Shown here one piece after another: positions 15,974 through 31,122 of a DNA stretch of 41,741 nucleotides. Source of the stretch: Flavobacteriales bacterium (lineage in GTDB: Bacteria > Bacteroidota > Bacteroidia > NS11-12g > UBA955); contig CANKVN010000009.1 of assembly GCA_947487055.1 (NCBI GenBank), forward strand, positions 1-41,741, in the 5' to 3' direction. Position 1 is the first letter of the stretch, and each line of letters begins with the position of its first letter. The notes beneath the pieces are model-generated. The model saw nothing but the letters and a program-made list of their open reading frames with translations, was not told where the DNA came from and made no database searches. Position numbers and translations under genes: made by a program.

Positions 15974-16011
15974 AGCTATAATTGCGACAACTACAGATAA
16001 AATCTCACAAT

Positions 16012-19000
16012 ATGAAGTTAACTATTACCAAAATCACCAGAGCGCTGGGCCTTGTGGGCTTAGGGTTTCTGGCCATGATGCCGGGTAGTTCAAAGGGGCA
16101 AATTTGCGCCGCTGCGAACTCTTGGGGTTGTGGACACAACTACGGTGGCAACATCGTAGAAATCAAAATGAGCAACAGTGGAGGTACGCTGGCCAGTTAT
16201 TCGGGCCTTGCGTGTTCTACTACTGCTTCTACACCCAACACGCTGGTGAATGCATCCAGTCCTGTCGACATCACTGCTGGTGGCGATTTGACTCTTGAAA
16301 TCACCGGTTCTGTTGATGCTTACGGTTGGGGTTACTTAACCCGTGTAGGTATCTGGTTGGATTACGACCGCAACAACAGCTTCTCTGCTGCTGAGTGTAT
16401 TGCGAATCCAGCATCAGGTCCATGGTCTGCTATCGGTACTACTGCGGTAAAATCAACCATCAAGTTGCCTTGCTGGTCTGCTACCGGTGCAAGCACCATG
16501 CGTTTCCGTGGTTTTTACTTCTACTCGACTGTTAACACAAGCATGGGCTGCGGAACACAGAGCACCTATGGTAACATCATCGATGTAGCCGTTAACCTGA
16601 AAGTGGGTGCGCCTCCCGTAGCCAACTTTATCGTTCCTACTGGTCCAAACTACGAAAACACCACAGTTAAGTTTAATGCTGCCAATCCAAATTCAGCATA
16701 TACCTACAACTGGACCTTCGCAGGACCTGACGTTACGCCAGTTGCCTCTACAGGAACAGTGGGTCAGGCCAAATGGGCTCCACCTTCACCACCTACTACC
16801 TTTGACGTGAAAATGCTCATAAGCTATTGCGGTGTAAAAGATTCAATTTCCAAATCAGTTACCATCGTAAGGCCAAGCAAAGTGCCTGATGCTGACTTTA
16901 TTGCTAAGGCTAACCAGGTTGAAATTTATTATGATGCTGAAATGTTGGATCTTTCCACCAACGGTGCATTCAAATGGAACTGGGAAGCTAAGTCTCCAAC
17001 TGGTTTGGTATACACCCGTACCGTACAGAATCCTAAATTTTTCTTAGACGAAGTAGGTAAGTGGGATTTCTGCTTAACTGCTGAAAACAGCATTGGTGCA
17101 TCTACCAAAACTTGCAAAAACATGTATGTTGAATGTACCCCACCTTCAGAATTCTACATGGGTATCACTACCCTGGGCGAAAACAAAAAGGGTACATTGT
17201 ATGATCACGCCGGACCTACTGCTAACTATGGTGGAAACCGTAAAACCAGTATCGACTATTTCAAGATTCTCCCTTGCGGTGCCAAAGAAATCCGCTTGAA
17301 ATTCAAGCAAATCAGATTGGCTGACGCCAACGATAAAATCCGCATCTATGATGCCGGAATTGCTGATCCTTCTAAAGAAATTACCCCTGCTACTGGAATT
17401 ACCGGTGCGAACCAGGCTACCTACAGAAATAGCACATTCACATCAAAAAGCGGTGCTATGTACATCACTTTCGAATCAACCGCTTCAGGTCAGGACTCCG
17501 GCCTCATCCCCACTTGGGATTCTGATTTAGCTCCTCCCGTTAAGCCAGATGCTTCATGGTCTACCATTTACAATCCTGCCGCAATCGGAACAACAGTTGA
17601 TTTCAAAAACACCTCAGCCAATGTTCAGGGTTCTCCAATTTGGGAGTGGTCAGTAGATGGCAACCCCGAGTCTGGTTCTGAAACATTCAGCCGTGTATTC
17701 CCAGCTGATGGTACCTACACTGTTTGTTTGTCAGCTACCACTTGTAACGGTTCAGACACTTTCTGCAAAACAATTGATATTGTAACTCCTACCAAACCAG
17801 GTTTGTTGGATTACACTGCAAGCAACGTTCGTCCAAATGCTGGTCAAACTGTTGATTTCACAATCACTTCAGATTATGCTACCAACTTCGAATGGAACAT
17901 CTTCCCAACTACCTACACCGTTATGTCAGGTTCTTTGGTTGGAACTTCCAAGAAGTTGTCTCTTCGTTTCAACCAGGGTGGTTGCTACACTTTCACCCTT
18001 AAAGGTTGGAATGCTGCTGAAAACCCTGCCGGTTCTACCGAGAAGAAGGTTATCAAAAACAAATATGTATGTGCCCTTGACTATTGCATTCCTTTGACTG
18101 ACCTGATCAGCTCTGACATCGGAATCAACAAGGTTAACCTGAGCAAAGGTTCTACCACCTTGATCAACAACGAATCTGCAAGTGGTGTGGCTGCTTACAC
18201 AGACTATTCTGCTACCCAGAAAGCTACTTTGACTTTTGGTGCATCTTACAGCCTGGCTGTATCACGTTTGACCAACAGCAACAGCTTGAACTACAAAGCA
18301 TGGATCGACTTCAACGTAGATGGTGACTTTAATGACGCCGGCGAAGAAGTTATGAGCACTGGTGCAATCACCGGTTTTGATGCAACTGCAACCATCACCG
18401 TTCCAAACAAGAGCGCCAGCTTCGAAGGCAGCACACGTTTACGTGTAGCCAGCAGCTATGGTGCATTCAGCAACACTCCTTGTGGTGTAAACACTGTAGG
18501 TGAGTTTGAAGATTACGGTATCGAACTTGCCAATGACAATGCGATTCCAGTAATTACCCTTGTAGGTAAAGATACCTTATATGTAGAACGTACCAGTACT
18601 GCTAATGGATGCTGGGCTGAAGTAGCTAACAACACCTATAGCGCCAATGACCCTACAGAAGGTGACATGACTTCTAAAGTTGTATTGAACTCTGATTTGG
18701 ATTGTACCATCCCTGGTATCTACAGCATCGATTTCACATTGAGCGATGCATCAGGTAACGCAGCTATGCCTAAGCGTCGTACTGTATATGTGGTTCTTGA
18801 CAGGACTGCACCTACCTTGACCTTGAACGGTAAAGCAATCGAAACCATCGAACAGTGCGGAACCTACAACGAGCCAGGTGCAATTGCAACTGACGCTGTT
18901 GACGGTAACCTTACCACTGCTATCATCATCACTGGTTCTGTTAACGCTTCTAAAGTAGGTGACTACACCCTTACTTACACCGTTAGCGATGCTCAAGGCA

Positions 19001-20082
19001 ACACTTCAGTTAAGACCCGCATTGTGCAGGTTCGCGACACCAAGAAGCCTGGTATCTACACTGTAGGTAACCGTATCACAAACAACAGCATCGTTAAAAT
19101 TCAAATCAACAGCGTATTTGTAGATAACATCTATGCTCAAGACGAATGTAACGGTCCTATCGCGGTTGTTAAAACTCCTGGTTTCAACGGTCCGGTAAAC
19201 ACTGCTATCCGTGCTTCTTACCCTGTAATCTACACTTCAGTTGATCCTAACGGAAACAAAGCTGACGAAGATGGATTTGTAATCAACTACCAGGTTGATG
19301 ACTACATTGCTCCTGAAATTTCATTGAACACTGAAGATATCATCCTTCACGATGTGAATACTCCTTATGTATCTCGCAACGTAACTGTAAGCGATAACTT
19401 CTATCCTTTGAACAAAGTGAGTGTAGTTAAAACCGGTTCAGTAGATCCATACACCTTGGGTACTTACACTGAAACTTACACTGCCACAGACGAAAGCGGT
19501 AACACTACCACTAAAATTCGCACTGTAACAGTTGTAGACCGCATTGCTCCTCAAATCCTTGCACCTGCCATGAACGTATGCGTAGGTACTCCTTTCTGGG
19601 CAATGAGTGGCTTGGTATTGAGCGATAACTATTACTCGCCTGCTACCTTGTCTCCACTTGTATCTGTGTTGAACCACAACGTGAACATTTGGGAAGCTGG
19701 TGTTTACTACATCAACTACATGTTGAACGATCCTAGCGGTAACAAAGCCATGATGGTAACCCGTCCTGTGTTTGTTAACTATCCTCCAAACTGTCAGAAT
19801 ACTTACCTGAGCACCAGCGCAATCAGCCTTGATGAAGCAGTTAGCGTGTTCCCTAACCCAACCAGCGGTAAGGTAACCTTGAGCTACATGTTGCAAAACA
19901 ACAAGCCTGTAAGTGTTGAAGTATTCAATGTATCTGGCAGCAAAGTAGCGTCTTTCTCTAACTTGAAATCAGGTCTCGGACACACCGAAATGAACCTGGC
20001 TCAATTTGGAAATGGTGTATACATGATTCGTCTTTCAAACGACGGTCAAACCACCACCAAGCGCGTAGTAGTTAGAAACTAA
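16012..20082 (+). CDS. Large modular T9SS-secreted surface protein (GEVED-like, PKD, CUB-like, DUF5011/HYR-like Ig modules, T9SS CTD)
   Basis: Signal peptide; AWIDFNVDGDFNDAGEE...GEFEDYGIEL (GEVED); PKD-like WEWSVDGNPESGSETFSRVFPADGTYTVCLSA; CUB-like LYDHAGPTANYGGN...MYITFES; repeated TYTVSDAQGN / TYTATDESGN Ig-like units; CTD VFPNPTSGKVTL...GNGVYMIRLSNDGQTTTKRVVVRN. Start chosen at MKLTITKI rather than 15982. Confidence 0.92.
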   Translation: MKLTITKITRALGLVGLGFLAMMPGSSKGQICAAANSWGCGHNYGGNIVEIKMSNSGGTLASYSGLACSTTASTPNTLVNASSPVDITAGGDLTLEITGSVDAYGWGYLTRVGIWLDYDRNNSFSAAECIANPASGPWSAIGTTAVKSTIKLPCWSATGASTMRFRGFYFYSTVNTSMGCGTQSTYGNIIDVAVNLKVGAPPVANFIVPTGPNYENTTVKFNAANPNSAYTYNWTFAGPDVTPVASTGTVGQAKWAPPSPPTTFDVKMLISYCGVKDSISKSVTIVRPSKVPDADFIAKANQVEIYYDAEMLDLSTNGAFKWNWEAKSPTGLVYTRTVQNPKFFLDEVGKWDFCLTAENSIGASTKTCKNMYVECTPPSEFYMGITTLGENKKGTLYDHAGPTANYGGNRKTSIDYFKILPCGAKEIRLKFKQIRLADANDKIRIYDAGIADPSKEITPATGITGANQATYRNSTFTSKSGAMYITFESTASGQDSGLIPTWDSDLAPPVKPDASWSTIYNPAAIGTTVDFKNTSANVQGSPIWEWSVDGNPESGSETFSRVFPADGTYTVCLSATTCNGSDTFCKTIDIVTPTKPGLLDYTASNVRPNAGQTVDFTITSDYATNFEWNIFPTTYTVMSGSLVGTSKKLSLRFNQGGCYTFTLKGWNAAENPAGSTEKKVIKNKYVCALDYCIPLTDLISSDIGINKVNLSKGSTTLINNESASGVAAYTDYSATQKATLTFGASYSLAVSRLTNSNSLNYKAWIDFNVDGDFNDAGEEVMSTGAITGFDATATITVPNKSASFEGSTRLRVASSYGAFSNTPCGVNTVGEFEDYGIELANDNAIPVITLVGKDTLYVERTSTANGCWAEVANNTYSANDPTEGDMTSKVVLNSDLDCTIPGIYSIDFTLSDASGNAAMPKRRTVYVVLDRTAPTLTLNGKAIETIEQCGTYNEPGAIATDAVDGNLTTAIIITGSVNASKVGDYTLTYTVSDAQGNTSVKTRIVQVRDTKKPGIYTVGNRITNNSIVKIQINSVFVDNIYAQDECNGPIAVVKTPGFNGPVNTAIRASYPVIYTSVDPNGNKADEDGFVINYQVDDYIAPEISLNTEDIILHDVNTPYVSRNVTVSDNFYPLNKVSVVKTGSVDPYTLGTYTETYTATDESGNTTTKIRTVTVVDRIAPQILAPAMNVCVGTPFWAMSGLVLSDNYYSPATLSPLVSVLNHNVNIWEAGVYYINYMLNDPSGNKAMMVTRPVFVNYPPNCQNTYLSTSAISLDEAVSVFPNPTSGKVTLSYMLQNNKPVSVEVFNVSGSKVASFSNLKSGLGHTEMNLAQFGNGVYMIRLSNDGQTTTKRVVVRN

Positions 20083-22622: not shown

Positions 22623-23290
22623 GCATCAAAAACTTCGGAAATAATCCGAAAAGTACGTATTTCTTTTCCGGGGAAAACCACCTGTTTCATGTAATCGAGC
22701 ATTTTTTCTGCCAGTTTTCTGCGGCATTCCCGATCACCTTCAGGCTGTTGGTTTTTTTGCAGTGTTTCAATCAAAAACTGGTCTGTTTTATCCCAAAAAA
22801 GGAAATTCATACCGGTATGTATATGTTTGGTTTCACTAGAAGATATAAGGCTATGGCCGGTAGCTTCACATAGTTTGATGATGAACTTGTGGATGAACCA
22901 TAATTCCAGGCTGGAGGCACGGTAAAGCCTCGAAAATTCTGTTTTCAAGGCTGTAAAAAGGTTCTCGTCCGGCATTTCGTCAGGTACAGAATTTTTTACC
23001 AGCTCTGTGCATAGCAGCGCAATATTGCTGCGAACAGGATCCTCAATCAAAAAAGGTTCGATGGCCTTGGTCTCTTTGGCGCGAAGCAATTGCTGGTTGT
23101 TTTTGTAATAAAAAACCAATTCGATAAAGCAACCGGGTCGCAGTGCCGCTCCTTTGCCTTTTTTGCCTTGTACCGAAGAAAAGATGAAGGATAACACGCC
23201 GTGGGTTTGGGTGAAAACATGCACGATAGCGGAATTTTCTGCATAAGCAGTTTTTCGCAATACCAGTGCTTCTGTTTTAATCAGCATCAA
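22619..23290 (-). CDS. recO: DNA repair protein RecO
   Basis: MLIKTEALVLRKTAYAENSAIVHVFTQTHGVLSFI N-terminal OB fold typical of RecO. Confidence 0.88.
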   Translation of the reverse strand: MMLIKTEALVLRKTAYAENSAIVHVFTQTHGVLSFIFSSVQGKKGKGAALRPGCFIELVFYYKNNQQLLRAKETKAIEPFLIEDPVRSNIALLCTELVKNSVPDEMPDENLFTALKTEFSRLYRASSLELWFIHKFIIKLCEATGHSLISSSETKHIHTGMNFLFWDKTDQFLIETLQKNQQPEGDRECRRKLAEKMLDYMKQVVFPGKEIRTFRIISEVFDA

Positions 23291-24357
23291 TCCACCCAGT
23301 CGGCTATAAATAGGTTGGTTGCACGTGTGCCACCATTGTACCGGTTGGAACTAAATACCAGTTTTTTCCCGTTGGGGGAAAACATGGGGAAGGAGTTGAA
23401 AATACTTTCAGTGGTGATTTGTTCCAACCCGGTTCCATCTTCATTGATCATATAAAGCTGGAAGTCATATCCCTTGGTGCTTTTGTGATTGCTGGAGAAA
23501 ATGATTCGTTTATTGTCGTGGTGGTAAAACGGAGCCCAGTTGGCTTTGCCCAAATGGGTGATTTGCTTTAGGTTAGTTCCGTCTATATTCATTGTATAGA
23601 TTTCCATTTGGGTTGGCTCCACCAGGTTTCTGGACAATAAATCTTTATACTTTGCGACTTCCTCCGGCAAAATGGGTCTGCTGGACCGAAAAACAATTTT
23701 TTTACTATCCGGGCTAAAAAATGCGCCACCGTCATATCCCAGGCCAAAGGTGAGTTGTTTCTGGTTATTTCCGTCAATGTCCATAATCCAAAGTTCAAGG
23801 TCTCCACTGCGCGTGCTGGTGAAGATAATCTTCTTGCCGTCGGGGGAAATGGTTGCTTCGGCATCGTAACCGGGTGCGTTGGTCAGTTGTTTGGTTATTT
23901 TGCCACTAAGGTCAGATACAAAAATGTCGTAGGTGTCGTAAATGGGCCAAACGTATGCCCCTTTTAATTCCGGAGCAGCCGGACATGATTTTGCTCCAAG
24001 GTGGGTGCTGGCAAAAAGGATATGCTTGTTGTCGGGCATGAAATAGGAGCATGTGGTTCTACCATCACCGGTGCTGATGAGGCTGGGTTTGAATCCGGAA
24101 TCCTGAAGTTGTTTGATGCTTGCCGTGAAGATTTGATCGCACTGTAATCCCCAGGCGGTATTGTTGCTTTGGAAGGTGAGCATTTTGCCGTTAAAACTCC
24201 AGTAGGCTTCGGCATTATCCCCGCCAAAGGTGAGTTGCTGCAGGTTTTTCAGGTGCTTTTCTCCTTTCCCAACAGGTAATTGATTTGCCGGTTTTGTTAA
24301 AGTGCAAGCATTCAACAGCAAAATAAACAGGGGGAGGGTTGGAGAAAAATATTTCAT
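23287..24357 (-). CDS. PD40/TolB-like beta-propeller lipoprotein
   Basis: Lipobox LLNAC; repeated SPDGKKIIFTSTRSGDLELWIMDIDGNNQKQLTF-type units; overlaps recO start. Confidence 0.88.
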   Translation of the reverse strand: MKYFSPTLPLFILLLNACTLTKPANQLPVGKGEKHLKNLQQLTFGGDNAEAYWSFNGKMLTFQSNNTAWGLQCDQIFTASIKQLQDSGFKPSLISTGDGRTTCSYFMPDNKHILFASTHLGAKSCPAAPELKGAYVWPIYDTYDIFVSDLSGKITKQLTNAPGYDAEATISPDGKKIIFTSTRSGDLELWIMDIDGNNQKQLTFGLGYDGGAFFSPDSKKIVFRSSRPILPEEVAKYKDLLSRNLVEPTQMEIYTMNIDGTNLKQITHLGKANWAPFYHHDNKRIIFSSNHKSTKGYDFQLYMINEDGTGLEQITTESIFNSFPMFSPNGKKLVFSSNRYNGGTRATNLFIADWVD

Positions 24358-24432: not shown

Positions 24433-25461
24433 TTATTTCAGCAGTTCCCAGGCTATTTTAGGGTAACCTTTTTCACCAAGATCATTGTAGAAGTCTACGA
24501 AACGCATTTTGAAATAATTTCCTTTCGCATCCAGTATGATAAAAACTTTGTTTTGATTGATGGCGTATTTATTTGCTGACAGGCTCCAGGTTTTCCAATC
24601 GTAACCTATTTCATTCAAATAATTGCTAAACACCAATGCTTTTGCATAAGTGAGGTCAATTTGGTCAAAAGGGATTTTGTTGTTTAGTTCAATTACTTTC
24701 ACCTTGTTTGGGTTGGTGAGCACTCCACGAAGTATGTACGGCATTGTTTGCCCGAGGGTTTCTTCTTTCACCACCTGCTTGTAGGTGGTGATCATCAGGT
24801 CCCAGTTATCCCGGTTTAGGGGTTCATTCTGAACCTCTTTTTCAATTCCGAAATTGTAATAACAATAATTATAGTTGTTGTTTGTTTGGATATAAACATC
24901 GTGAGTGGCAGCAGTGTCGGAAAGTACAGCCCATTTGAAGTGGTAGCTGTTGCCTTCTCGCCCCATCATTTTTAGTTTTATGAACTTTTTATTGCCCAAT
25001 GAATCTGCGCCTCGGTTGATGATATATAAACGGTTAAATGGTTCTGCTTTGCCCAAACTGTAATTCTTGCACCAACCAGAGAAGGCGAGAGAATCTACAT
25101 GACCATTGGGATTGTCGAAACGCCATTGAAATTTACTGATATCGATGCTGGTAAGGTCTTTAAAATCAACATTGTCTATAGAAGTAACATTGAAGGCACT
25201 GTGCTTGCCGGAGTTGATGATAATCTTGTTGGTTTCATTCATGGAAAACCCAATATCCCACAATCCAAAGGGATTGGAAGCTGTTTTTTGGGTGGAAAAC
25301 TCAAACCACAATTGATTTTCATAGTTTTCACCCATGAAAAAGCTGGTAGATTGAGTGCCAATGGGAACTTCTGGTGCAGTATAAAGCGGCTCCTCTTTCT
25401 CACAACCCGCAAGGGAAATGACCAGTAGAATGAGCGATATGTATATTTTGCCCAGTTTCAT
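24433..25461 (-). CDS. HmuY-family lipoprotein
   Basis: Lipobox LAGC followed by EKEE; LWDIGFSMNETNKIIINSGKHSAF and NWDLMITTYKQVV motifs of HmuY-like proteins; overlaps the TonB receptor gene by 4 nt. Confidence 0.75.
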   Translation of the reverse strand: MKLGKIYISLILLVISLAGCEKEEPLYTAPEVPIGTQSTSFFMGENYENQLWFEFSTQKTASNPFGLWDIGFSMNETNKIIINSGKHSAFNVTSIDNVDFKDLTSIDISKFQWRFDNPNGHVDSLAFSGWCKNYSLGKAEPFNRLYIINRGADSLGNKKFIKLKMMGREGNSYHFKWAVLSDTAATHDVYIQTNNNYNYCYYNFGIEKEVQNEPLNRDNWDLMITTYKQVVKEETLGQTMPYILRGVLTNPNKVKVIELNNKIPFDQIDLTYAKALVFSNYLNEIGYDWKTWSLSANKYAINQNKVFIILDAKGNYFKMRFVDFYNDLGEKGYPKIAWELLK

Positions 25462-27731
25462 TGGATGTCATAAGTTAAACGCAGGAAAGCAATTCTGCCG
25501 GGCGTGATGTTTAGGTTCAAACCTTGTTCTGAGTGAGGGGTGAGGTTTCTTTGGGTGGATTGTAGCGATGTGATTCCGAGAATGTTCTTAACACCTGCAG
25601 TTACCTGTACCCTGGCCTTAGGAAAGGCTTTCTGCATGGTAAGGTCCATTAGGTAAAATCCTGATGTGCGGTATCGGTCGTAGTTTTCCATGTAACCTAC
25701 CGTTGGACTTGTGTATCGGCTAAATAGAGAAACAGAGGCTTTTTGCCTGGCGAATTTTCGGGTGAAGTTGAATCCTACCTGACCATTGATGTAGGAGCGT
25801 TGGTCGGTGCTGTCTGCTTCTTTCAAAAGGTCGGAAACCGTAAGTAAGGTTCCGGAGAACTGGAAAGAGTATTTTTTGTTGTGGAACTCAAAATTGGTAC
25901 TCAGACCCTGGGACCTGAATCTTCCAATGTTGATGTAGGTATAGTAATTGGTGTTTATATCCACCAAGGCAAGGTTGATTTTGTTTCGGATGATATTGTT
26001 GAAGAGGGAAAAACTAAAAATAGCGCCGGAACTGGGTGAAAATGAATGGCGGTAATCAAATGAAAGGATGAAATTATCCGAAGTTTCTGCGTTTAAGTTG
26101 GCGTTACCATGAACGTTGTGGCTCATGTCAACAAAATAAAAATTCAGTTCCTTAATGCTTGGGGCCCTAAAACCTTTGGCATAGCTGCCTCTGAAACAAA
26201 GGTGTTTGGATAAATTGTATTTTAATTGCAGTGAGGGAATAAGTGGAGCCATTTTCAACCTGTTTCCGAAAATGCCGGTAACAATGGGTTCGCCAAACCT
26301 GGAATTATGGAGGATGCGCAACGATGGCCTGATTTGCCATTCCTTGTTGGGATTGTATTCCATGGATCCAAAGACGGCAACATCAGAAATGCCGGGCAAT
26401 TGGGCAGGTACACGTTTGCCGATGGCTGTTTCACGCATGAAATCATAACCTGCTGTCCAGGAAATAGCCTCAACAGGGTTTCTGCGGGTAAATACCCCCC
26501 TGGAATTAAACATGGTGAAAATAGAAGTGTCTTGATCTTCCGGTCTATACGGCGTTTCTGCTCCTGTTACCAAATTGCGTTTGATGGTGTTTTTCGCCCG
26601 GTTGAAATAGTTAAAGGCATTTTGCCATTCAAACCTGCTGAATGCGTTGATTTTAAAAACAGAATGGGCGCTGTTGTCAAAACGGGTGGTAAAGTAATTG
26701 GAGTTGTATCCCGTTACCTTAGACAGGCTATATTCGGCATCGCTGCGGTCGGTTAGCTTTTCCTGATAAAAAGAAGAGGTGAAACGGTGCTGCGCATGTT
26801 GCCTGTTAACGAAAAGCGATGCATCGGCAAAGTGTTTGATTTTGGGCTTCCAGTCGTAGCTGCGGGTGCTTGGATCAAAGTCCCTGCCGGCGAAAAAATG
26901 TCTGCCTGCATTGAATGTTATGGGCATCTGTTTGGTGATGCGGGACGTAACATTAACATCATAATTGAAGTTGGACGGCTTGGCCAAAAAGTCCTGAAAC
27001 AAATTCAGGCGGGCATTGAAGCGCTGCTGGGCAAAATTTTTGGTAATGATGTTGATAACTCCACCAAGGGCATCGGTTCCGTAAACAACACTCATTGGCC
27101 CTTCAATGATTTCCACACGCTCAACATTGGAAAGCACAATCTGGCTCACATCCACGTTGCCATTGATTCGGCCAATGACTGGAATTCCATTGATGAGGAT
27201 TTTAATGTCTTGTCCGCCAATTCCCTGCATGATGGCATTGCTTCCCATAACGGCATCTTGCCCCACCTGGATATTTACTTCATTGAGGAGTAATTCGCCA
27301 AGATTTTGGGCCCCCATTTGCAATATTTTTTCTTTCGAAATCACCCTGACCAAGTAGGGATTGTCCGCAATTTGCCTTGGTCCTGTTGCGCCGGTAATGG
27401 TGACAGGATTGATGAGCAAATCTTTTTTTACCAACTGGATTTTGATGTGTAAATCGTTTACGGTATAGGTGGCGGAAAAGTCCTGCAGTGAGTCGTTTGG
27501 AGAGATTATGTTTAGTTTGAAGGCCCCTTGCTGCTGGAGTGTGTATTTGCCATCAGCATTGGTTTTGCCAATGTTTAACGCATGTTCAGGACGGAAATCT
27601 GCCAGGATTGTGGCCTCAAATACAGGTTGGTTGAATTCATCGCGCACTTCAATTATCCTTTGCTGACCAAATGCATCAGTCCAGCTTCCGGCAAAGCCCA
27701 ATAAAACAAATATGTATGTGAGGAGCCGCAA
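25458..27731 (-). CDS. TonB-dependent outer-membrane receptor
   Basis: Carboxypeptidase-regulatory-like N-terminus; plug domain VERVEIIEGPMSVVYGTDALGGVINIITK; C-terminal barrel ending GRIAFLRLTYDIQ. Confidence 0.95.
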   Translation of the reverse strand: MRLLTYIFVLLGFAGSWTDAFGQQRIIEVRDEFNQPVFEATILADFRPEHALNIGKTNADGKYTLQQQGAFKLNIISPNDSLQDFSATYTVNDLHIKIQLVKKDLLINPVTITGATGPRQIADNPYLVRVISKEKILQMGAQNLGELLLNEVNIQVGQDAVMGSNAIMQGIGGQDIKILINGIPVIGRINGNVDVSQIVLSNVERVEIIEGPMSVVYGTDALGGVINIITKNFAQQRFNARLNLFQDFLAKPSNFNYDVNVTSRITKQMPITFNAGRHFFAGRDFDPSTRSYDWKPKIKHFADASLFVNRQHAQHRFTSSFYQEKLTDRSDAEYSLSKVTGYNSNYFTTRFDNSAHSVFKINAFSRFEWQNAFNYFNRAKNTIKRNLVTGAETPYRPEDQDTSIFTMFNSRGVFTRRNPVEAISWTAGYDFMRETAIGKRVPAQLPGISDVAVFGSMEYNPNKEWQIRPSLRILHNSRFGEPIVTGIFGNRLKMAPLIPSLQLKYNLSKHLCFRGSYAKGFRAPSIKELNFYFVDMSHNVHGNANLNAETSDNFILSFDYRHSFSPSSGAIFSFSLFNNIIRNKINLALVDINTNYYTYINIGRFRSQGLSTNFEFHNKKYSFQFSGTLLTVSDLLKEADSTDQRSYINGQVGFNFTRKFARQKASVSLFSRYTSPTVGYMENYDRYRTSGFYLMDLTMQKAFPKARVQVTAGVKNILGITSLQSTQRNLTPHSEQGLNLNITPGRIAFLRLTYDIQ

Positions 27732-27741
27732 TCCTTATTGA

Positions 27742-29049
27742 TTAGTCAATAACAATCTTTTTGGTGATTGCGTTTTGGCCACCACTAACATTTAACAAAT
27801 ACAGACCTTTGGGCAAGTTGCTTACCGGGATTGCAATGCCAGAGAACAAGTTGGTATTGCTTGCCTTCTGCTGGCTTATCAGTTTGCCATTAATGTCCAG
27901 CAGGGAAACTGTCGCTGTATTTGTTTTGGCATCGCTGATGCTAACAAAAAGCACTTCGGTAGCAGGATTTGGGAATACTTTGATTGAACCCAAAGTCTTG
28001 TCATTTACTGAAAGGCTATTGCGCAGCGCTGTTTTAGAGAATTTGATTTTACCGGTGGTAGAGCCCTCGAATCCGGTCATGTGAATCAACCAATATGAAG
28101 TGTCTGCAGTGCGGGTGCGTTCAACGATATAGCTCAGGGTGTCTTTTAAGGACCAGGTGCCGCTGAAAGCTTTCCAGCCAGAACCAATACCTGTTAAGTC
28201 ATTGCTGAACTTTTTGGTGTTGTCGCCAACCATCCAGTTTGAATCGCCCAATATGGTGTTAAAGGCCCTGCCTCCGATTTTGGCAGTTCTGGTACCGCGT
28301 TTACTCTCAATGCCCATAACAGGATACATTTCAAGGTTTCCGGTGCCGGGGTTTGGGGTTAATTCATAGTAACGGTTGAATGTGATATCCCAATTGGTAT
28401 TAGCTGGTTCGCGGTTTGGTTTGGTGTTTCCAACAAATTTATAATATTTATACATTTTGCCGGTGGCAGCAGATTGGTACAGGGTATCTGTCTTTTCTGC
28501 ACTTCCATCAAGATTGGCAACTTTAAAAATCAGATCGCCATTGGCTTTCTGAACGATTGGCCAAAATTTGGCAAAACGGCTGTAGGTATTTGGTGCCATG
28601 CCGGCCCAAGCGAGCAGGTACATGGAATCGCCGGTTACTTCTTTGCTGTTTACATCGTAGGTTCCCCATCCGAATTTCCAATTCGATAAATTGGTGTAGA
28701 GGCTAAATGCTCCTTTGTTGTGGTCGTGGATATCATTCCAGTATGGTTTCCAGGCAGTCCAGCCGGCGGTATCAAATGTATTCCAGGCATCTGTTTTGCC
28801 TTTTGGATAAAGAAAAACCCTTAAGCCGGACATGTGGTTTGCACGGATGCAATTGTCCCTACTTACGGAAGTGTGCGCAATATCCCAGTTGTTTACGGGA
28901 GCGGTTGCTCTTTGCCCGGTTTGGATGTCATAGAATACTTGCGAACCATATCCAGGACCCATCACAGCAGAATCGTTGATGATGGTTTGTGCATTGGATG
29001 TGCCCAAAAAGGATAAAGTGCTGATAATCAATAGGAAGTTGTGCTTCAT
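27742..29049 (-). CDS. T9SS-secreted HmuY-like protein
   Basis: Signal peptide MKHNFLLIISTLSFLGTSNAQ; QVFYDIQTGQRATAPVNNWDIAHTS and NTNWDITFNRYYEL HmuY-like motifs; CTD VFPNPATEVLFVSISD...LPKGLYLLNVSGGQNAITKKIVID. Start taken at 29049 rather than 29085. Confidence 0.75.
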   Translation of the reverse strand: MKHNFLLIISTLSFLGTSNAQTIINDSAVMGPGYGSQVFYDIQTGQRATAPVNNWDIAHTSVSRDNCIRANHMSGLRVFLYPKGKTDAWNTFDTAGWTAWKPYWNDIHDHNKGAFSLYTNLSNWKFGWGTYDVNSKEVTGDSMYLLAWAGMAPNTYSRFAKFWPIVQKANGDLIFKVANLDGSAEKTDTLYQSAATGKMYKYYKFVGNTKPNREPANTNWDITFNRYYELTPNPGTGNLEMYPVMGIESKRGTRTAKIGGRAFNTILGDSNWMVGDNTKKFSNDLTGIGSGWKAFSGTWSLKDTLSYIVERTRTADTSYWLIHMTGFEGSTTGKIKFSKTALRNSLSVNDKTLGSIKVFPNPATEVLFVSISDAKTNTATVSLLDINGKLISQQKASNTNLFSGIAIPVSNLPKGLYLLNVSGGQNAITKKIVID

Positions 29050-29082: not shown

Positions 29083-29090
29083 CAAAGGTA
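29083..29090 (-). promoter_or_regulatory. -7 element TACCTTTG (minus strand) upstream of the HmuY/TonB receptor operon
   Basis: CAAAGGTA on the plus strand; TAnnTTTG match 33 bp upstream of the chosen start. Confidence 0.5.
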
Positions 29091-29203
29091 CTTCTTTCCA
29101 AGTTGTTATTGCATTGAACAGGCATGGTGTATTGTCATTTTTAAGTAATGAATTTTAATTGAAATAGCGGTTTATTTTGGACCATTGTGGAAGATCTCTT
29201 CAG

Positions 29204-29253: not shown

Positions 29254-31122
29254 ATGGCAAAAATCAGCATCAACATAAAATCAGGAACCATAGAAAGTGA
29301 AGGGATAATCGTAGGGATTGATCTTGGTACGACCAATAGTATTGTGGCCATGGTGGATGCAGAGAGCGGCAAGCCGAAGGTTATTGGAACTGGCGATGAC
29401 GTGCTGGTGCCCTCGGTGATTCACATTGCAGAAGGCGGAATTCCCATTGTCGGTGAAACCGCCAGGCGGGCGCTGGTGTCGCATCCCCACAGCACCATTT
29501 TTTCTGTTAAACGTCTGTTGGGAAGAAGCTACAAGGATATTGCCAACCATTCCGATTTTTATTCTTACCGTATTTTGGATGAAGATGATGGAAAGCTGGT
29601 GAAAATTGCAGCAGGTGATCATTTCTTCACTCCGATTGAGTTGAGCGCCGAAATTTTAACCACCCTTAAACGGAAGGCGGAAGCCTACTTGGGTAAAACG
29701 GTGAGCCGCGCGGTGATAACCGTTCCGGCCTATTTCAACGATAGCCAGCGTCAGGCAACAAGGGATGCCGGAAAACTTGCCGGATTGGATGTGTTGCGCA
29801 TTATCAATGAGCCAACTGCAGCAAGTCTTGCTTATGGAATTGGCCTGGATCCCAATGAAATGAAGACCGTGGTGGTTTATGATTTGGGTGGCGGCACCTT
29901 TGATGTTTCTATTCTGAGGATAGAAGATGGCGTGTTTGAGGTGCTTAGCACCAGGGGCGATACCTATCTGGGCGGCGATGATTTTGACCGGGAAATTGTT
30001 CAGTATTGGGCAAAAAATCTTACGCTTGATATGAAAAGCTGGTCGCAGGCAGATGTTCAAAGCATCAGGCTGAAAGCCGAGGAGGCCAAGCGATTTGTTT
30101 GTACAGCCAACTTAAAATACAGCGATTCGGTAATCCTACATGGTAACAACCTACAACTGGAACTGGAATTTGCAAACTTCGAAGAGATAACACGCAGATT
30201 GATGCAAAAAACCATGGATTGCCTGCAATCTGCACTTACAGACTCAGCCTTGGGTTTGGACGATATTGACGAGGTTGTGCTGGTGGGTGGAAGTACCCGA
30301 ATGCCGATGGTGAAGCAACGAATTGCGGACATATTCGGTCATAATAAAGTGAACGATACCTTGGATCCGGATCAGGTGGTGGCATTGGGCGCTGCTGTGG
30401 AAGCCGATATACTTGCCGGCAACCGCAAGGATATTTTGTTGCTGGATGTTACGCCGTTGAGTTTGGGTATTGAAACCCTTGGAGGGCTTATGGATGTTAT
30501 GATTCCGCGCAACACCAAAATTCCGGCCAAGTTTGTAAAACAATATACCACATCGGTGGATGGACAAGTGAAAATGGGTATTTCTATTTATCAGGGAGAG
30601 CGCGAGCTGGTGGAGGAAAATCGCAAGCTGGGGGAATTTATACTCACAGATATTCCTGCAATGCCTGCCGGTTTGCCGAAAATAGAAGTACGTTTTTTAA
30701 TCAATGCAGATGGGATACTTACTGTGGAAGCGCAGGAGTTGAGAAGTGGTGTGCAGCAGCAGGTACAGATTAAGCCACAATACGGGCTCACCGATGCTGA
30801 TGTGGAAAAAATGCTGATGGACAGCCTCACCCATGCCAAGCATGATGTGGAACTCAGGATGCTGGTAGAAGCCAAAACGGAGGCAGAGCAGATGTGTTAC
30901 ACTGTGACGCGTTTTCTGGATAAAAACAAATCCCTGCTCACGGATGAAGAGGTTCTAAAAACAAAGGAACTGGTAAAAATGTTAAATAAAAGCATTCCGG
31001 AAGGCGATAAAAATGCAATATTGTCTGGCGTAGATGCGTTAAATACTTACACACGGCCATTTGCCGAGAGACTTATGAATCAGGCAGTGTCTGGTGCTTT
31101 AAAAGGAACAAAAATAAATTGA
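29254..31122 (+). CDS. Hsp70-family chaperone, HscA-like
   Basis: GIDLGTTNSIVAMVD, VVYDLGGGTFDVSILRIEDGVFEVLSTRGDTYLGGDDFD, VVLVGGSTRMPMV; N-terminal extension and length (622 aa) resemble Fe-S chaperone HscA more than DnaK. Confidence 0.88.
   Translation: MAKISINIKSGTIESEGIIVGIDLGTTNSIVAMVDAESGKPKVIGTGDDVLVPSVIHIAEGGIPIVGETARRALVSHPHSTIFSVKRLLGRSYKDIANHSDFYSYRILDEDDGKLVKIAAGDHFFTPIELSAEILTTLKRKAEAYLGKTVSRAVITVPAYFNDSQRQATRDAGKLAGLDVLRIINEPTAASLAYGIGLDPNEMKTVVVYDLGGGTFDVSILRIEDGVFEVLSTRGDTYLGGDDFDREIVQYWAKNLTLDMKSWSQADVQSIRLKAEEAKRFVCTANLKYSDSVILHGNNLQLELEFANFEEITRRLMQKTMDCLQSALTDSALGLDDIDEVVLVGGSTRMPMVKQRIADIFGHNKVNDTLDPDQVVALGAAVEADILAGNRKDILLLDVTPLSLGIETLGGLMDVMIPRNTKIPAKFVKQYTTSVDGQVKMGISIYQGERELVEENRKLGEFILTDIPAMPAGLPKIEVRFLINADGILTVEAQELRSGVQQQVQIKPQYGLTDADVEKMLMDSLTHAKHDVELRMLVEAKTEAEQMCYTVTRFLDKNKSLLTDEEVLKTKELVKMLNKSIPEGDKNAILSGVDALNTYTRPFAERLMNQAVSGALKGTKIN

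Follow-up and report, generated by a model that had tools for sequence, protein, structure and literature searches.

The window, by which we mean the whole stretch of 41,741 nucleotides that was analysed, holds three consecutive open reading frames (ORFs) on the minus strand, which we call CTDY, TBDT and LIPY. CTDY and TBDT are separated by 10 bp (27732-27741), and TBDT and LIPY overlap by the 4 nt ATGA (25458-25461), all on the minus strand. The original prediction had described three packed minus-strand genes with this gap and this overlap, and the ORF coordinates match its positions exactly.

27742-29049, minus strand: CTDY, a predicted secreted HmuY-like protein with a type A T9SS sorting domain (435 aa from ATG; PF18962, 60.6 bits)
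25458-27731, minus strand: TBDT, a HmuR-like TonB-dependent receptor (757 aa, TTG start; PF07715 plug, PF00593 barrel)
24433-25461, minus strand: LIPY, a HmuY-family lipoprotein with a probable surface location (342 aa; PF14064, 59.6 bits)

In the terms of the hmuYRSTUV operon, the locus contains only the Y and R types, and no gene in it qualifies as S, T, U or V.

The receptor and its two HmuY relatives

Three short features bear on the destination of the flanking proteins and on the nature of the receptor.

25390-25404, minus strand: predicted lipidated Cys of LIPY with the surface-export-like signal CEKEE (Cys invariant; LES K-(D/E)2, PMC5080379)
27748-27978, minus strand: type A C-terminal sorting domain of CTDY, residues 358-434 (PF18962/TIGR04183; the AF2 model is confident only here)
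26094-26171, minus strand: FRAP box, invariant His and NxxL box of TBDT (FRAPSIKELNFYFVDMSHNVHGNANL; His in 38/38 receptors)

Against PF14064, for which the curated cut-off is 27 bits, full-length LIPY scores 59.6 bits, and a match was found in all 39 LIPY orthologs. A LIPY profile also retrieves HmuY (3h8t), BfrB (8b6a) and Tfo (6eu8) from the PDB by sequence. The structure model of LIPY was of medium quality (pLDDT 63, pTM 0.50); its best seven matches in the PDB are all HmuY-family proteins, but the E values are at least 0.025, the TM-scores are low and none is significant alone. The lipobox of LIPY reads LAGC and continues into CEKEE. The Cys (+1) is present in 39/39 orthologs, and 23 of these possess a K at +2 or +3. 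In Capnocytophaga canimorsus the surface export signal has been defined experimentally as K-(D/E)2 with the K at +3 (PMC5080379), and CEKEE is an exact fit, which bears out a likeness to such signals that had been noticed at the outset. In the cell, LIPY probably sits next to the receptor, exposed on the external side of the outer membrane.

CTDY does not share the surface-lipoprotein character of the HmuY family, for which LIPY has both the conserved Cys and the export-like signal, and carries a T9SS domain instead. Its N-terminus is a Sec-type signal peptide, its C-terminal domain matches PF18962 (60.6 bits) and TIGR04183, and this type A domain is present in 38/38 CTDY orthologs. SprA, the T9SS translocon, is encoded in the host genome (G000, contig C1), so that the three marks of a type A cargo (signal peptide, type A domain and a T9SS in the genome) occur together. 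CTDY would thus be expected to reach the cell surface or the medium through the T9SS. The original prediction had assigned the two proteins to different anchoring routes, and this distinction holds, with a T9SS-type signal in CTDY (PF18962, TIGR04183) and a lipobox (LAGC) in LIPY.

The kinship of CTDY with HmuY is invisible in a Pfam scan of the single protein and was established from its orthologs and from profile-profile comparison. A search of both proteins against PF14064 had been proposed as a check; it succeeded with LIPY, but a scan of the full window CTDY gave no match to this family. The C-terminal half of CTDY alone scores 17.3 bits (E 0.0053), which is under the cut-off. With a threshold of E<=0.1, PF14064 finds 16 of the 38 CTDY orthologs, and the lowest E value is 4.2e-10. 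When the core of CTDY was aligned with that of LIPY by hhalign, the probability was 100 (E 1.8e-44), and comparison of the whole-alignment profiles gave the same probability (E 3.6e-44). Moreover, a genome search with the LIPY sequence directly retrieves CTDY orthologs, for example G071:C4:169921-170781 with 69.8 bits. These comparisons establish CTDY as a paralog of LIPY and a relative of HmuY, in agreement with the claim that both proteins flanking the receptor are of this kind. AF2, run on a 7-sequence alignment, did not model the CTDY core usably (pLDDT 39.6).

For TBDT the best NCBIfam models are those for heme (TIGR01785, 112.5 bits) and B12 (TIGR01779, 111.6 bits), both under cut-off. 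Since the cut-off of TIGR01785 is 316.85 bits, the receptor is not filed in that subfamily, although it may still work like a TIGR01785 heme receptor. With nearly equal heme and B12 scores, these models were set aside as a means of discriminating the ligand. A FRAP box and an NxxL box with an intervening His have been described for heme and hemoglobin receptors (PMC9331221). TBDT carries this motif of TonB-dependent heme receptors, and the His is invariant in 38/38 receptors.

Probable tandem domains, gene order and neighbours of the operon

The cores of CTDY and LIPY are each about 320 aa long, compared with the 157 positions of the PF14064 profile, and in both the following parts may be distinguished.

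28450-28986, minus strand: CTDY HmuY-like domain 1, residues 22-200 (CTDY N half versus C half, hhalign 90.6%, E 1.3e-6)
28015-28449, minus strand: CTDY HmuY-like domain 2, residues 201-345 (PF14064, 17.3 bits; hhalign to the LIPY C half 99.9%, E 1.5e-32)
24874-25401, minus strand: LIPY HmuY-like domain 1, residues 21-196 (hhalign to CTDY domain 1 99.3%, E 1.3e-20)
24436-24873, minus strand: LIPY HmuY domain 2, residues 197-342 (PF14064 positions 4-157 of 157, 47.1 bits alone)

Four comparisons of N halves with C halves gave hhalign probabilities of about 75-91%. Scanned separately, the N halves of the window's own CTDY and LIPY do not match PF14064. In one orthologous locus (L086) the N half of CTDY covers PF14064 positions 3-145 of 157 with 26.6 bits and its C half positions 7-149, and the N half of LIPY covers positions 1-62. 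Further, other families possess HmuY-like ORFs of about 190-215 aa, and these align with the combined profile over its C half only. Core length, the likeness between halves, the separate scans and these short ORFs suggest that two HmuY-like domains probably stand in tandem in both CTDY and LIPY, the C-terminal one being canonical; the original prediction had missed this probable two-domain make-up.

A tree of 87 cores separates the CTDY and LIPY clades fully, with 100/99 support, and the mode of anchoring changes once on this tree, compared with 29 changes expected in shuffles. The clean split indicates that CTDYs and LIPYs go back to one old, single duplication, and that within this sample anchoring has never switched.

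In the genomic regions retrieved, CTDY, TBDT and LIPY follow each other in this order, on one strand and with no intervening gene, in about 23 genera drawn from the window's own family, the sister family and a third family of the class; two genera outside the class (G348 and G221) share the order, for a total of about 25. The locus is not the product of chance, because its order recurs so widely. Conservation of this order across Bacteroidota was one of the checks that had been proposed. The original prediction would have been refuted by a CTDY that does not match the HmuY fold, or by a gene order unique to this genome together with no ligand binding; on the points that computation can address, neither was observed.

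Two further families (L094 and L095) keep all three genes with extra genes inserted. The operon of L095 reads CTDY, Peripla_BP_2 (a lipoprotein), FecCD permease, ABC ATPase, HemS, TBDT and LIPY. A similar row in L110 consists of CTDY, Peripla_BP_2, a permease-like gene, an ATPase-like gene, HemS and TBDT, without LIPY in that stretch; there Pfam identified Peripla_BP_2 and HemS, and the other three genes (permease, ATPase and TBDT) were recognised from their position, N-terminal sequence or profile. In L113 a Peripla_BP_2 gene lies 3' of LIPY. The same locus also encodes, between CTDY and a divergent TBDT-LIPY pair, a short protein that has a weak T9SS sorting domain (L113:9778-10584). In L094 two proteins are encoded between CTDY and the receptor (L094:2702-4230): one, of the CbiX family and so akin to sirohydrochlorin chelatases, has a possible lipobox, and the other is a membrane protein that resembles PepSY_TM. 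The two might conceivably perform a tetrapyrrole-handling step at the surface or in the periplasm.

Outside this core, partial loci are found. L118 has CTDY and TBDT without LIPY; L115, L116, L119 and L121-L124 have TBDT and LIPY without CTDY; and in L108, L111 and L112 CTDY has neither partner close by. A public record under the name Sphingomonadales (L066) contains this Bacteroidota operon, fully syntenic and 63-75% identical; its label is probably wrong.

Three further features adjoin the genes.

29083-29090, minus strand: Bacteroidota -7 promoter element TACCTTTG of the operon (TAnnTTTG upstream of CTDY in 7/7 genus loci)
29133-29151, minus strand: candidate operator formed by the inverted repeat TCATT-N7-AATGA, with the operon on one side and a divergent DnaK-like gene on the other
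23287-24357, minus strand: PD40 (TolB-like) beta-propeller lipoprotein, a conserved neighbour (PF07676, 137.6 bits)

The inverted repeat is perfect in 6 of the 7 genus loci, in all six of which it lies 61 nt upstream of TAnnTTTG; its right arm is degenerate in L067, and within the window it occurs as a single copy. We regard it as a candidate operator that may be shared by the operon and the divergent gene. The latter (29254-31122), of the Hsp70 family, adjoins the operon and is kept there in most of the window's family. Elsewhere in the window, positions 15982-20082 encode a 1366-aa repeat protein with a C-terminal sequence resembling a T9SS sorting domain.

The PD40 gene had been credited with its own promoter. 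The element TAATTTTG is indeed present about 22 bp upstream, but TAnnTTTG is found there in only 3 of the 5 genus members checked, and the promoter is weak grounds for treating the gene as a separate unit. PD40 genes adjoin HmuY genes in at least four families (f1, f2, f33 and f35), in varied arrangements; copies in other loci include L101:6868-7968, L105:10915-12039, L108:8149-9237 and L111:8381-9430. The HmuY-adjacent copies, those of f33 and f35 included, are 52-79% identical, far above the identity of the HmuY proteins themselves, and this difference suggests that the PD40 lipoprotein is probably a functional partner of the HmuY system. Its standing as a conserved partner had been missed in the original prediction.

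Heme auxotrophy and the probable capture of heme

Searches for ferrochelatase, URO-D and ALAD, each positive in control genomes, found none of the three in the host genome (G000), which is 95% complete. Among 117 relatives ferrochelatase is absent from 108 and found in only 9, URO-D in only 9 (one a fragment) and ALAD in only 8. Heme auxotrophy is known in aquatic lineages. Within Bacteroidota it has been described mostly in Bacteroidales (PMC11139205).

To relate this loss to the operon we considered the 73 genomes that are at least 90% complete, of which 63 have LIPY without ferrochelatase, 3 have both, 6 have ferrochelatase without LIPY and 1 has neither. Thus 63 of the 66 LIPY-bearing genomes lack ferrochelatase, with p 3e-6, a value inflated by shared ancestry, to which the correlation is partly due; counted by family, the association has p 0.015. 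Of the seven genomes that lack LIPY, six make heme; in the exception (G010) the absence of LIPY is probably explained by a contig that breaks after CTDY. In a sample of the phylum, ferrochelatase is absent from 11 of 34 genomes with the profile, compared with 34 of 263 without it (p 0.008). G026, G046 and G111 possess both the operon and heme synthesis. In G026 (C10:228082-233288) and G046 (C169:151-5812), which belong to one genus of an otherwise heme-auxotrophic family, ferrochelatase, ALAD and URO-D are clustered on one contig; these genes could have been regained by transfer or retained.

The original prediction had left the ligand as unknown. The FRAP-His-NxxL motif of the receptor, the heme transport and HemS genes linked to the operon in other genomes, the loss of heme synthesis and the association of the operon with auxotrophy all point to heme as the most likely ligand. 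Against this reading counts the lack of a conserved axial pair, since no column of His or Met is conserved across all LIPYs or across all CTDYs. Known members of the HmuY family vary in their heme ligands (PMC9331221, PMC11967795).

Our preferred explanation, to which we would assign a probability of about 0.78, is that the three genes serve heme uptake in a heme-auxotrophic lineage, with a HmuR-like receptor that is fed by two paralogous hemophore-like proteins, LIPY being lipid-anchored and CTDY exported by the T9SS; the operon is probably how the lineage obtains heme. Both proteins would capture heme from dilute or protein-bound sources, LIPY on or by TBDT in the manner of Porphyromonas gingivalis HmuY with HmuR, and the exported CTDY would reach further. 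Heme captured by both would converge on the single TonB-dependent receptor, be pumped inward and be kept as an intact cofactor, for example for cytochrome oxidase. The host genome encodes a heme-copper oxidase subunit, COX1. No HemS was found in this genome, which would suit a cell that keeps heme whole as a cofactor and does not draw iron from it. Counted against this explanation, besides the unconserved axial residues, are this same lack of HemS, the nearly equal heme and B12 scores of the receptor, the three relatives that combine the operon with heme synthesis, the share of ancestry in the auxotrophy correlation and the poor structure models. A further point against it is the T9SS-secreted hmuY of Flavobacterium columnare, since the deletion mutant grew normally in TS medium limited for iron (PMC9618737). 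We hold as doubtful a more ambitious version, namely a two-hemophore system that arose once and spans the phylum, in which two tandem HmuYs, one T9SS-exported and one lipid-anchored (four HmuY-like domains), would act in series on one receptor as the main source of heme for an aquatic lineage that has lost tetrapyrrole synthesis, with PD40 possibly a fourth surface component.

The two proteins might divide this work in more than one way. Each may feed TBDT directly, CTDY with distant or particle-bound heme and LIPY with heme at the cell surface, and we give such parallel capture somewhat less than an even chance. Partial loci with a single protein are common outside the home lineage, and the T9SS HmuY of F. 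columnare (PMC9618737) and the F. psychrophilum TBDR with one HmuY relative (PMC9331221) are in keeping with it; the near-constant pairing in the home lineage, however, suggests that the roles are not redundant. We think it rather unlikely that there is a strict relay, with CTDY, whether released or at the surface, taking heme from other proteins and obliged to pass it to LIPY, which alone would dock on TBDT. The original prediction had proposed this order, from T9SS protein to lipoprotein to receptor, and it remains conjectural, no heme-ligating residue being conserved across either family. In its favor, the two modes of anchoring never interchange across 87 sequences, the gene order is kept in about 25 genera, and HasA forms that hand heme to each other before the receptor have been discussed (PMC11967795). 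However, the loci with only CTDY or only LIPY imply that neither is strictly required for the other, and the retention of only one of them in some lineages argues against an obligatory series everywhere.

CTDY may, with still lower probability, have drifted from heme binding to the role of a surface adhesin or hemoprotein-docking protein. Its greater distance from PF14064, which only 16 of 38 members match, and its residues H59, H72, H108 and H110, conserved in the window's genus but not family-wide, would fit such a drift; yet both domains and the LIPY-like core have been retained over the whole tree, still in the operon. Finally, it is quite improbable that the operon serves a ligand other than heme, be it a different tetrapyrrole or cofactor, for example cobalamin, or else a siderophore: the B12 and hemin models score the receptor almost alike (111.6 and 112.5 bits), a beta-propeller lipoprotein is next in line, much as the Bacteroides B12 receptor BtuB pairs with the propeller lipoprotein BtuG, the L094 operon contains a CbiX-family protein and heme ligand residues are not conserved, but HemS lies beside the operon in L095 and in the CTDY-TBDT operon of L110, the receptor has the FRAP-His-NxxL motif and the presence of the operon tracks the loss of ferrochelatase, URO-D and ALAD.

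Uptake of heme through two hemophore-like proteins would provide a concrete heme-acquisition route for a widespread, uncultured aquatic lineage of Bacteroidota, and predicts that added heme or a heme-donating partner could help to culture it. One HmuY duplication, fixed with two routes of surface delivery, would also be a natural case for asking why both hemophores are kept per receptor.

Comparison with known systems

Several HmuY paralogs in one species are familiar from Prevotella intermedia (PinO and PinA) and Bacteroides fragilis (BfrA, BfrB and BfrC), all known as lipoprotein-type and single-domain. We know of no T9SS-exported HmuY partner in P. gingivalis. In that organism, itself a heme auxotroph (PMC12106395), HmuY is, like LIPY, a surface lipoprotein with a TonB-dependent receptor (PMC12583661, PMC12578637), and it forms an SLP-barrel complex with HmuR (PMC12578637). 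The P. gingivalis operon hmuYRSTUV differs in that its HmuY is a single-domain protein of about 200 aa, present once per operon, and in that it includes the chelatase-type HmuS (PMC12583661, PMC12578637).

Closer to the window in its layout is HfpR/HfpY of F. psychrophilum, where a TonB-dependent receptor and a HmuY relative are likewise in one operon; HfpR is co-transcribed with HfpY, which binds heme and aids growth on hemoglobin (PMC9331221). This system has one HmuY, has a DoxX-family gene between the two and serves iron supply under scarcity (PMC9331221). A T9SS-exported HmuY, which the original prediction had taken no account of, is already known in F. columnare (PMC9618737). C6N29_01035 combines a HmuY superfamily domain with a Por_Secre_tail, is described as secreted by the T9SS and is predicted to bind heme (PMC9618737). 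It is like CTDY in being a HmuY-type protein with a T9SS tail, but the passages on it describe no second HmuY lipoprotein or cognate receptor (PMC9618737). RhuR-RhuA-RhuH of Riemerella anatipestifer is also comparable, in that a flavobacterial TonB heme receptor is joined by a heme-binding accessory protein and by a hemophore distinct from it, although RhuH is reported to have low HmuY homology and a different structure (PMC11967795).

The open-licence literature yielded no account of two tandem-domain proteins paired in this way, of their having arisen once or of a connection with heme auxotrophy in this lineage, which is weak evidence of novelty, and no paper there links the phrase "HmuY domain" with the T9SS. 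As a whole, this comparison suggests that the T9SS HmuY and the receptor-HmuY operon are the known elements of the locus, and that the pairing of two tandem-domain proteins is new, as is its connection with heme auxotrophy.
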